Source of the DNA: Aliarcobacter skirrowii CCUG 10374 | Lineage (GTDB): Bacteria; Campylobacterota; Campylobacteria; Campylobacterales; Arcobacteraceae | Assembly: GCF_003544835.1 (NCBI RefSeq) | Contig: NZ_CP032099.1 | Location: 310,001 to 374,000, forward strand | DNA length: 64,000 nt | Reading direction: 5' to 3' | Part shown: positions 50,062 through 53,830 of the stretch, one piece after another | Numbering within the stretch: the stretch's first letter is position 1 | How the letters are laid out: every line of letters begins with the position of its first letter | Made by a program: the position numbers and the translations under genes | Notes under the pieces: generated by a model | The model's input: only the letters and a program-made list of their open reading frames with translations | What the model was told of the DNA's origin: nothing | The model's database searches: none

Positions 50062-50571
50062 GTGCTTAAAAAAATCTCTTTTTATATTGTAATAGTTTTA
50101 ATTCTAAGCTCTTGTGGATATAGACCAACAGCACAATTAGCAAAAGAGGAGCTAGGTAAAAATATATTTGTAAAAACAGATATAAGAGCTAGTGATCCTA
50201 GAAACTCTGTTTTAGTTAAAGATGCTGTAACAAAAATATTATCTCAAAGATTAGATTCAAATCTTGTAGATAATCAATTTGAAGCTGAAATAATAATGGA
50301 TTTAAGCATTGGAAGTGTTAGCTTTGGGGTTTTACAATATGATAAAGATGGTTACAATAAACTTTACAAAGCAAAAGTTAATATAAATGTAAAGTATTTT
50401 GATAAAGAGAAATCAAAAACAAAAAGTTTTACAGTTTCTGGAGAGTATGATTTCGCTGTTGATATAGGTGGAGAGATAAATGATACTCATAGATTTGAAG
50501 CAATTAGTAAAGCAAGTGATATGGCTGTAACTGAGATTTTATCAAGAGTTGCAGTTGCATCTTTTGAGTAA
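50062..50571 (+). CDS. lptE: LptE-like LPS-assembly lipoprotein
   Basis: 169 residues starting at GTG 50062. The signal peptide ends in lipobox LSSC (Cys18) followed by GYRP, the typical LptE start, and a small alpha/beta domain. LptE plugs LptD in the outer membrane and helps insert LPS. In Campylobacterota it lies directly after leuS, as here. Similarity outside the N-terminus is low in this family, so the name rests on size, lipobox and position. Confidence 0.82.
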   Translation: MLKKISFYIVIVLILSSCGYRPTAQLAKEELGKNIFVKTDIRASDPRNSVLVKDAVTKILSQRLDSNLVDNQFEAEIIMDLSIGSVSFGVLQYDKDGYNKLYKAKVNINVKYFDKEKSKTKSFTVSGEYDFAVDIGGEINDTHRFEAISKASDMAVTEILSRVAVASFE

Positions 50572-50574
50572 AAT

Positions 50575-51735
50575 ATGTCTTTAAAAACTTTAGACTTAAA
50601 AGGGTTTTTAGAGCATAAAACTCTTTATTATGACAAAATTGATTACAGCTACATAAAAAAATCTGCTGATATTTTATTAAATCATATAAATCTTCCTTTT
50701 ACTATTCATATTGTAGGAACAAATGGAAAAGGTACAACTGGAAGATTTTTAGCTCACTATCTGTATAAAATTGGATTTAAAACTCTACACTATAGCTCTC
50801 CTCATATAAAAAAATTTAATGAAAGAGTCTGGTTAAATGGTTTTGATATAGATGATGAGAGTTTAGAAATAGCTCATAAGTTTTTGCAAAATATTTTAGA
50901 TGAAGAGCTTTTAGAAAAACTTACATATTTTGAATACACAACACTTTTGGCATTTTATATTAGTAAAGATTGTGACTATTTAATTTTAGAAGCTGGGCTT
51001 GGTGGAGAGTTTGATGCAACAAATGTTGTAAAAAATGATCTTAGCCTTATTACAACAATTGGACTTGATCATACATCTTTTTTAGGAGATAGTGTAGAGA
51101 AAATTGCAAGAACAAAGATGCGTTCGGTTGATACAAAGATGATTATTGGTTATCAAGAGTTTGCTAGTGTTTATGATGTTGCAAATAGTGTTAAGCTTGA
51201 GTTAAAAGATGAGTTTAATAAAGATATAGAGATTTTAAGAGTTGAAGATTTTAATATAGATTATAACTTTACATTTGCATCATATTTAAAAAGAAATTTA
51301 GCACTTGTTTTAAAATGTTTAAAAGAGTTAAAAATTGATATAAATCTTGAAATTTTCAACTCAACTCCAATTTTTGGAAGATGTCAAAAGATAAAAGATA
51401 ATATATTTATAGATGTTGGACACAATCCTTTGGCTGCAAAAGTGATTTTTGAAGAGTTTAAAAATAAAAAATTAACTTTGATTTACAACTCTTATGATGA
51501 TAAAGATTACAAAGAGGTTTTGACAATTTTAAAACCAATTATAGATGAGGTATATATTGTACCTTTGGAAGATAAGAGAGTTGTAAAAAAAGAGATTTTG
51601 GAAAGTTGTTTAAAATCACTTGATATTAAAGAGATAAAGAGTTTAGAGTTTGATAATAAAAAAATCTATCTTGCTTTTGGTTCATTTTTAGTTGTTGAGA
51701 GATTTTTGGAGCTAATTTCTTATGAAAAACCTTGA
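50575..51735 (+). CDS. folC: FolC, folylpolyglutamate/dihydrofolate synthase
   Basis: 386 residues of the Mur ligase fold. ATP loop VGTNGKGTTGRFLAHYL, then HYSSPHIKKFNERVWLNG and the magnesium-site EAGLGGEFDATNVV; the C-terminal domain has DVGHNPLAAKV. It adds glutamates to folates and may make dihydrofolate. Overlaps the next gene by 14 bases. Confidence 0.94.
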   Translation: MSLKTLDLKGFLEHKTLYYDKIDYSYIKKSADILLNHINLPFTIHIVGTNGKGTTGRFLAHYLYKIGFKTLHYSSPHIKKFNERVWLNGFDIDDESLEIAHKFLQNILDEELLEKLTYFEYTTLLAFYISKDCDYLILEAGLGGEFDATNVVKNDLSLITTIGLDHTSFLGDSVEKIARTKMRSVDTKMIIGYQEFASVYDVANSVKLELKDEFNKDIEILRVEDFNIDYNFTFASYLKRNLALVLKCLKELKIDINLEIFNSTPIFGRCQKIKDNIFIDVGHNPLAAKVIFEEFKNKKLTLIYNSYDDKDYKEVLTILKPIIDEVYIVPLEDKRVVKKEILESCLKSLDIKEIKSLEFDNKKIYLAFGSFLVVERFLELISYEKP

Positions 51736-53830
51736 AGAAGAGCTAGAAAAACTATATTTAGAAAAATCAAATATTGAAGAGCGAATTGCACAACTTGAGA
51801 GTTTAAAAAATCAAAATATAAAAAAAGAGTTCTCAAAAGATGAAAAAATTTCACTTTTTAGAGAATTATTTGTTGCAAGAGCTGATATATATGCTAAAAA
51901 ATGGCGAAGTCGTGATGGAGCTAAAGAGGGATTTAGTGCTGTAACTGCCACTTTTATGGGTGAAGATTTTTTGCCACTTACAAACAAAGAGTTAGAGGAG
52001 CATTTAAGAGGAAATCTTTTTTTAGCATCATATTTAATAAATAAAAATCAAGAGTGCTCTTATGTTGCTTTAGAGTTAAATAGTGAAGATGTTTTTAAAC
52101 TTCAAAGAGCTTTACAAGAGTTAAATATAGAAGCCTCTTATAGTTTAAGCTCTTATAACTCTGTTTTTGCATGGATATTTTTTAAAGAGAAAATTGCTTC
52201 AAAAATATCTTTCTCTTTCTTATATTTTTTGCAAAAAAAAGCAAATATAAGTGCTAAAATCTATCCAAATAGTGAGTTTTGTACAAATGAAAAATTAGGA
52301 AACTTTATAGAGTTGCCTTTACAATTAGAGCATAGAAGAAAAAACAGAACAGTTTTTTTAGATATAAATACAAAGAAAATATATGAAGATCAATGGTCAT
52401 ATCTATCAAGTGTTAAAAAAGCAACAAAAGAGCAAATTTATAGTTTTGCACAGGTTTTAAGTGCAAAAAATATTCAAAAAGATTTAAAGCATATAAATTT
52501 TCCAATAAATAAATTTGAAATAGTTTTAAATAGTGGAATAGAGATTCCAATTAAAAACTTATCAAAGAGTTTTATTAGTAAGCTAAAATCATTTGCTACT
52601 TTTTTAAATCCTCAAGTAAAACTTCTAACACAACTTAGAAAACCACTTTACAACACTCCAAAATATCTAAAAGGGTATGAAGAGAGTAGTGATTATTTAA
52701 CACTTCCAAGAGGTGTAAAGATTAGTTTATTTGAATATTTTAAAGAGAATTTATTAGATTTTTCAATAAAAGATGAGAGAGTTTTTGAAAAAATTGAGAC
52801 AAAAAGTGTGAAATATACTCTAAGACCAGAGCAAGAGGATGCTATAAAAGAGATTTTAAAATCACAAGAGTCAATTTGTGTTGCTCCTCCTGGTTTTGGT
52901 AAAACTCTTTTGGGAGCAAAAATATTTGAGTTAAGAGCTGTAAAAACTTTGATTATTGTAAATAAAAATATGCTACTTGATCAGTGGATTAGCAGATTTG
53001 TTGACTATTTTGGATATAAAAAGAGTGATATTGGATATTTAGGAAAAGGTCAAAACAAACTAAATAGTAATATTGATGTTGCAACAATGCAAAGCTTAAA
53101 TAACTCTCCAGATTTAATCAAAAACTATACTCAAGTAATTGTAGATGAGTGTCACCATATTCCAGCACTTACATTTGAGCAGATAGTAAAAAATTTCAAA
53201 GGAACTTATATTTTAGGGCTTAGTGCAACTCCTAGAAGAAAAGATGAGTTAGATCCAATTTTATACCAACAATTAGGAGATATATCTTATGAGTATAAAA
53301 AACCAAAAACACATACAAATATATTAAAAGTTATAAAAACAGATTTTGTAAGTAGTAGCGATAACTACTCAACAATAATAGGAGAGCTTGTAACAAATGA
53401 GAATAGAAATAGACAAATTGTTGATGTAATAAAAGAGCATAAAGATAGAAAAACTCTTTTGCTTAGTGATAGAATTGAACACTTAAATCTTTTAGAGAAT
53501 ATTTTAAAAGAGCAAAAAATTGATTTTGTAAGTGTTCATGGAAGTCAAAATAAAAAAGAGCAAGTAGAAAATATGCAAAAAGTAAAAACAAGTTCACTTA
53601 TACTTGCAACAAGCTCATTTTTTGGAGAAGGAATAGATTTTCCTCATCTAAATACAATTATTTTTGCAACTCCAATATCTTTTTATGGAAGATTAATTCA
53701 ATATCTTGGAAGAATTGGAAGGGGAAATCAAAAGTGCTTGGCTATTGATTTTTTAGATAGCCAAAATCCAATTTTGAACTCAACTTATAAAAAAAGGCTT
53801 GAAGGTTATAAACAGATGCATTATAAATAA
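51722..53830 (+). CDS. Archaeo-eukaryotic-primase-like domain fused to SF2 helicase
   Basis: 702 residues. An N-terminal coiled coil (1-30) leads to a region (about 44-235) that matches TOTE-type primases: FRELFVARADIYAKKW, GNFIELPLQ and DQWSYLSS. The catalytic positions are altered: the DxD motif reads ELN (118-120), and the second-motif His (GAHVWIFF in the family, from memory) is SVFAWIFF (147-154). The C-terminal half is an SF2 helicase with APPGFGKT (near 388), DECHH (near 475), SATPRR and YLGRIGRG. It may bind and remodel nucleic acid without making primers. It overlaps folC by 14 bases; a role in defence or repair is inference. Confidence 0.7.
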   Translation: MKNLEEELEKLYLEKSNIEERIAQLESLKNQNIKKEFSKDEKISLFRELFVARADIYAKKWRSRDGAKEGFSAVTATFMGEDFLPLTNKELEEHLRGNLFLASYLINKNQECSYVALELNSEDVFKLQRALQELNIEASYSLSSYNSVFAWIFFKEKIASKISFSFLYFLQKKANISAKIYPNSEFCTNEKLGNFIELPLQLEHRRKNRTVFLDINTKKIYEDQWSYLSSVKKATKEQIYSFAQVLSAKNIQKDLKHINFPINKFEIVLNSGIEIPIKNLSKSFISKLKSFATFLNPQVKLLTQLRKPLYNTPKYLKGYEESSDYLTLPRGVKISLFEYFKENLLDFSIKDERVFEKIETKSVKYTLRPEQEDAIKEILKSQESICVAPPGFGKTLLGAKIFELRAVKTLIIVNKNMLLDQWISRFVDYFGYKKSDIGYLGKGQNKLNSNIDVATMQSLNNSPDLIKNYTQVIVDECHHIPALTFEQIVKNFKGTYILGLSATPRRKDELDPILYQQLGDISYEYKKPKTHTNILKVIKTDFVSSSDNYSTIIGELVTNENRNRQIVDVIKEHKDRKTLLLSDRIEHLNLLENILKEQKIDFVSVHGSQNKKEQVENMQKVKTSSLILATSSFFGEGIDFPHLNTIIFATPISFYGRLIQYLGRIGRGNQKCLAIDFLDSQNPILNSTYKKRLEGYKQMHYK

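Follow-up and report, generated by a model that had tools for sequence, protein, structure and literature searches.

A predicted Prim-Pol fold without its metal site, fused to an SF2 helicase in the folC operon of Arcobacteraceae

The protein analyzed here resembles several described systems in part. The class A CAPPs (MsCAPP and MpCAPP; 7NQD, 7NQE, 7NQF, 7P9J) have a Prim-Pol fold in common with it (profile E 1.6e-25), and a third CAPP type consists of a Prim-Pol followed by a helicase (PMC8211822). Mutation of both motif I Asp residues in MpCAPP abolishes synthesis (PMC8211822), as does the change of DID to LIL in PolpTN2 (PMC5862659), and a survey of archaeo-eukaryotic primase (AEP) families describes the acidic motifs I and III of Prim-Pols as nearly universally conserved (PMC5862659). 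The TOTE conflict systems, named for TPR, OB, TBP and Effector (Aravind et al. 2022, as cited in PMC12458937), gave their name to the Pfam family of the AEP domain considered here. SF2 helicases of the XPB, RadD and UvsW types have a similar helicase core, from which the present protein differs by its fused Prim-Pol fold. Plasmid-borne AEP-SF2 helicases of Arcobacter, Aliarcobacter and Proteobacteria, annotated as DEAD/DEAH box helicase family proteins and carrying the Pfam AEP-TOTE domain, have the same domain order, with about 40% identity to the Campylobacterota copies. They keep DxD, sxH and hD and are found patchily, beside toxin-antitoxin genes, unlike the folC-linked gene described below.

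We analyzed a window of 64,000 nucleotides from Aliarcobacter skirrowii CCUG 10374 (contig NZ_CP032099.1, positions 310,001 to 374,000), in which an ORF beginning with ATG, and sharing its first 14 nt with the end of folC, encodes a helicase preceded by a coiled coil, an AEP domain and a linker module (Table 1). CAPPs are active primases that keep DxD and His, are coupled to Cas genes and, in the case of MsCAPP, contain TPR and C-terminal domains, whereas the window protein lacks both catalytic elements, has an SF2 helicase in place of those domains and is encoded next to folC. With a folC operon instead of cas linkage and ELN instead of an active DxD, it falls outside the CAPPs. It also departs from the TOTE operon type, as TPR-, OB- and TBP-domain partners were not found adjoining the window gene or its relatives.

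Table 1 Features of the primase-helicase gene and its operon in the window.
Feature	Coordinates	Strand	Evidence
lptE-like gene, same operon	50062..50571	+	PF04390
folC-like gene directly upstream, 14 nt overlap	50575..51735	+	ORF list, Mur ligase domains, conserved linkage
Whole gene: coiled coil, pseudo-AEP, linker module and SF2 helicase, 702 aa	51722..53830	+	ORF list, Pfam, 92/104 family genomes
N-terminal coiled coil, residues 1-31, putative oligomerization	51722..51814	+	AF2 models, weak GCN4-type profile matches
Archaeo-eukaryotic primase (Prim-Pol) fold, catalytically eroded, residues 41-241	51842..52444	+	PF22548, PADLOC PrimPol, Foldseek MsCAPP
Motif I remnant ALELN, residues 116-120; VIDLD in intact relatives	52067..52081	+	
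Motif II remnant SYNSVFAW, residues 144-151; SGNGIHIW in intact relatives	52151..52174	+	
Motif III FLD, residues 212-214; Asp retained in window protein	52355..52363	+	
Linker module between AEP and helicase, residues 265-355 (LRKPLYNTP, LPRG)	52514..52786	+	Alignment, AF2
Helicase RecA-like lobe 1, residues 365-506	52814..53239	+	PF04851 (ResIII) E 1.4e-26; XPB, UvsW fold matches
Walker A CVAPPGFGKTL, residues 386-396	52877..52909	+	APPG and GKT invariant in all orthologs
Helicase motif II DECHH, residues 475-479	53144..53158	+	DE-x-HH invariant in all orthologs
Helicase lobe 2, motifs IV-VI (QYLGRIGR), residues 564-668	53411..53725	+	PF00271 (Helicase_C) E 1.3e-15

The initial annotation, made from the letters and their translations, had read the N-terminus as a TOTE-type AEP domain, and this is borne out by Pfam (PF22548, residues 41-241, E 2.6e-48) and by the PADLOC model for CRISPR-associated PrimPol (residues 14-277, E 7.5e-34). 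An AF2 model of residues 1-262 (mean pLDDT 87.5) contains the N-terminal alpha/beta part and the RRM-like catalytic fold by which AEP/Prim-Pol proteins are recognized, preceded by a single helix at residues 2-31. Foldseek ranked MsCAPP highest among the matches of the AEP model (7NQE, 7P9J and 7NQF; E 7.8e-15, TM 0.76 on the target), followed by weaker matches to LigD polymerase, RepB' and Prim-PolC. The whole-protein model has a mean pLDDT of 86.4 and a pTM of 0.56, leaving the mutual placement of the domains uncertain; its best fold matches are XPB II (5TNU) and T4 UvsW (2OCA). The attached helicase was annotated as keeping all its motifs, and motifs I, II, III, V and VI are indeed near-invariant across 87 orthologs, in agreement with an SF2 helicase of the XPB/UvsW type. 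Scores against the XPB equivalog (NF045503, 65 vs a cut-off of 610 bits) and the RadD equivalog (NF053632, 59 vs 720 bits) fell far below their thresholds, and the score against the PrimPol_Msp model (67 vs 200 bits) was below its own.

The catalytic motifs of the AEP domain are eroded where the initial annotation had placed the damage, at residues 118, 120 and 149. Motif I reads V-A-L-E118-L-N120 in the window protein vs V-I-D-L-D in intact relatives, and F149 in 144-SYNSVFAW-151 takes the place of the motif II His of S-G-N-G-I-H-I-W. In a profile alignment, DLD, HIW and FID of the intact relatives pair with DID, HIW and FVD of MsCAPP; the window protein has E118-L-N120, F149-A-W and F-L-D214 at these three sites. 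Judged by the motifs given for AEP enzymes in PMC10345425, it departs from motif I (hhhDhD/E) and motif II (sxH) and agrees with motif III (hD/E). The DxD pair is absent from 76 of 76 AEP-bearing orthologs, 72 full-length and 4 shortened. Among the 72 full-length proteins, residue 118 is Glu in 64, Lys in 5 and Gln in 3, residue 120 is never Asp, residue 149 is His in just 3 (genera g5 and g8), and residue 214 is Asp in 58, Glu in 5 and Asn in 9. Whole genera have Lys, Gln, Ser or Cys at 118, and residue 120 is mostly Leu; motif III has Glu or Asn in many members of g9 and Asn in g88. As the His survives in g5 and g8, the metal pair was probably lost before it.

Several trivial explanations of the missing site were considered. 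The fold match and the invariant residues that flank the motifs (W151, F212, P199-L200 and R205) exclude misalignment, and the occurrence of the same pattern in complete single-contig genomes excludes sequencing or MAG error. We searched all conserved Asp, Glu and His columns of the AEP region and found no replacement acidic pair; D55, D65, D82 and D123, still conserved in the orthologs, are likewise conserved in intact relatives. Neither of the two outcomes named in the initial annotation as contradicting it, a structural search without AEP matches or a nearby Asp pair filling the metal site, occurred. One residue, E92, is newly acidic in the pseudo-AEPs, but it lies on the HLxG helix. A plasmid copy acting as a catalytic partner in trans was rejected, as the A. 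skirrowii genome has a single AEP-TOTE domain. The alignments and models together indicate that the AEP fold is retained without its metal site. Given an acidic E118 in 64/72 and D214 in 58/72 orthologs, it could conceivably still bind a single metal ion or a nucleotide.

DUF1882 (HP0184 of Helicobacter pylori, 2ATZ) is another AEP relative whose metal motif has changed, in this case a stand-alone protein. It has an AEP-like fold, a weak AEP-TOTE match, HLxG and a changed motif I (DxN), and differs from the window protein in its size of about 180 aa, its retained motif II His and its lack of a helicase. Motif I reads NIVIDYN in 8/8 DUF1882 proteins inspected (L205, L206, L207, L208, L210, L212, L215 and L216), all from Campylobacterales outside Arcobacteraceae. 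The family was not found in any of 61 Arcobacteraceae genomes, with 112/150 genomes of the order as a positive control, and it was accordingly discarded as a stand-in there.

The primase-helicase gene was found in 92 of 104 Arcobacteraceae genomes, including Aliarcobacter, Arcobacter, Poseidonibacter and Halarcobacter. Nearly all copies lie downstream of lptE-folC, either directly or with genes for an M23 peptidase and a bactofilin in between, and a KefB-like gene often follows. The neighbors in the window are leuS, lptE, folC and a rhodanese gene; M23, bactofilin and KefB-like genes appear in relatives. The overlap with folC and the conserved linkage agree with the housekeeping operon named in the initial annotation, and the syntenic lptE-folC position across the family indicates vertical inheritance within that operon. 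Two MAG records titled Helicobacter pylori PMSS1 (L161) and Desulfosporosinus (L171) carry Arcobacteraceae-type AEP-less genes, and their titles look mislabelled.

To place the gene among its relatives, we calculated a tree from the helicase region and included outgroups from Proteobacteria, Bdellovibrionales and deltaproteobacteria. The folC-type orthologs form one clade with 100/100 support, placed within a set of relatives whose DxD and sxH are intact, some of them plasmid copies from Escherichia, Massilia, Undibacterium and Acinetobacter. This topology implies that the loss of DxD is derived and happened once, and we infer that the active site was lost before the sampled Arcobacteraceae diverged. 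Relatives at about 40% identity retain DxD, the His of sxH and motif III, and the intact copies of Arcobacter and Aliarcobacter are carried on plasmids, among them A. cloacae pACLO and A. cibarius pACIB. AbiEi/AbiEii genes adjoin these copies on plasmids and contigs (L222, L223, L096, L097, L032 and L040), and the neighbors of other intact relatives encode HipA, RelE/ParE, a DUF4143-type ATPase or a YhcG nuclease. Linkage to HipA or RelE/ParE was also seen in other phyla (L218, L220 and L221), and the AEP-helicase copy of the Aliarcobacter faecis plasmid (L040) is frame-broken. A phage origin was rejected: phage matches have about 25% identity and are confined to the helicase half.

The dead domain still evolves under constraint. 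Over 21 close ortholog pairs, dN/dS was 0.02-0.15 for the AEP domain (median 0.092) and 0.01-0.12 for the helicase (median 0.059), the medians being derived from the table of these pairs. Between genera, the orthologs are 49% identical in the AEP domain vs 70% in the helicase, and the intact relatives 70% vs 67%. These values show that purifying selection on the pseudo-AEP is altered and weaker, yet present. At about 30 AEP positions, conservation across the 72 orthologs reaches 95% or more; these include the derived E92 and R96 (window 51995-52012, residues 92-97, E-E-H-L-R-G), where intact relatives have Gln at 92 and usually Glu at 96 alongside the invariant His94-Leu95-x-Gly97. E92 and R96 may be a charge swap beside HLxG, and they hint at a new surface.

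Other lineages have gone further. Genus g4 has a shortened AEP region, covering about 160 of 201 columns, in proteins about 650 aa long. Genera g2, g83 and g85 have complete proteins of 474-478 aa without an AEP domain; their ORFs start right after the upstream gene, and the coiled coil, which is retained, leads directly into the linker module, which is conserved with or without the AEP. Pfam detected no AEP domain in the two of these orthologs that were scanned. They are monophyletic (99/99 support, and 99 in a larger tree), and the g83 and g85 copies remain at the folC-M23-bactofilin locus, with the g2 copy relocated beside der. The persistence of the helicase in these three genera shows that the AEP is not needed there for the core role of the helicase. 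In genome G348 (L110 and L169), an AEP-less ortholog contains several in-frame stops, so the gene was broken after the AEP domain had already gone, and genome G291 has only a decayed relic with short colinear matches between the bactofilin and KefB-like genes (L232:3400-3900). The relic and the broken gene indicate that the gene is not universally required. The AEP-less genome G043 has an additional, shorter copy consisting of the helicase alone (L039; 307 aa ORF, 47-50% identical to the window helicase) outside the der locus. The initial annotation had described a domain preserved without its chemistry; the loss of chemistry and retention of the fold stand, but "preserved" is too simple for a domain that diverges faster than its helicase, is shortened in g4 and is absent from g2, g83 and g85.

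We consider it reasonably probable that the protein is a domesticated AEP-SF2 helicase of the plasmid type whose Prim-Pol site was destroyed once and whose work is done by the helicase, the dead AEP serving as an accessory targeting or regulatory module. This reading builds on the fold, the motif loss, the single origin, the constraint and the later deletion, as read from the sequences above, and the clean removal of the AEP in one clade argues for its division of labor. A plasmid-type AEP-SF2 helicase would have become fixed in the host chromosome; the coiled coil would form an oligomer, the pseudo-AEP would hold single-stranded or junction DNA without synthesis, and the helicase would translocate on duplex DNA and remodel a fork, gap or branch in the service of host genome maintenance. 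The role of nucleic-acid sensor or recruiter for the helicase, suggested in the initial annotation, is possible for the pseudo-AEP. Its elaboration is held more tentatively: a conflict-type plasmid primase-helicase captured by the chromosome, its dead fold rebuilt as a DNA or nucleotide sensor gating a host helicase, with Q92E and E96R as the signature and one clade later dispensing with the sensor role. That the AEP is instead a non-functional leftover, persisting through fold stability or the rarity of deletions with no role of its own, would fit its faster divergence, its shortening in g4, its deletion in one clade and the loss of the whole gene from some genomes. We think this unlikely, since a useless domain would drift, and the dN/dS values of the 21 close pairs and the conserved positions, including E92 and R96, which intact relatives lack, run against it.

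Conflict-type surroundings raise the question of an anti-phage or anti-plasmid sensor, in which the dead AEP would recognize foreign DNA and the helicase act on it. The intact relatives are plasmid-borne and sit beside AbiEi/AbiEii, HipA and RelE/ParE, and a stand-alone Thermus Prim-Pol limits environmental DNA uptake (PMC7693054). The Thermus enzyme, however, is a different protein and catalytically normal, and the folC-linked gene, which has lost its enzymatic part, has no defence genes beside it in its housekeeping operon and is vertically inherited and fixed, not patchy. Because only the intact plasmid relatives have conflict-type neighbors, defence is a minority reading that we regard as doubtful, and a defence role for the folC-linked copy is unsupported. 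Continued polymerase or primase activity through a non-canonical set of E118, E122/D123 and D214 strikes us as extremely improbable. The motif definition does tolerate Glu at some positions (PMC10345425), and residues 118 and 214 are acidic in most orthologs as counted above, but the former is replaced throughout whole genera, Leu prevails at residue 120, 69/72 orthologs have lost the motif II His, and E122/D123 occur in intact relatives as well and so are not replacements.

It is unusual for a whole bacterial family to carry a fixed pseudo-primase fused to a helicase that still works, because motifs I and III were reported to be near-universal in a survey of AEP families (PMC5862659). For annotation, the case cautions that an AEP-TOTE assignment does not equal a primase. 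The stages of the process coexist in the sampled genomes: intact, DxD lost with the His kept, both lost, shortened, deleted and decayed. With natural versions of the protein that have the domain and others that do without it, the value of a non-catalytic polymerase fold becomes directly testable in Arcobacteraceae.
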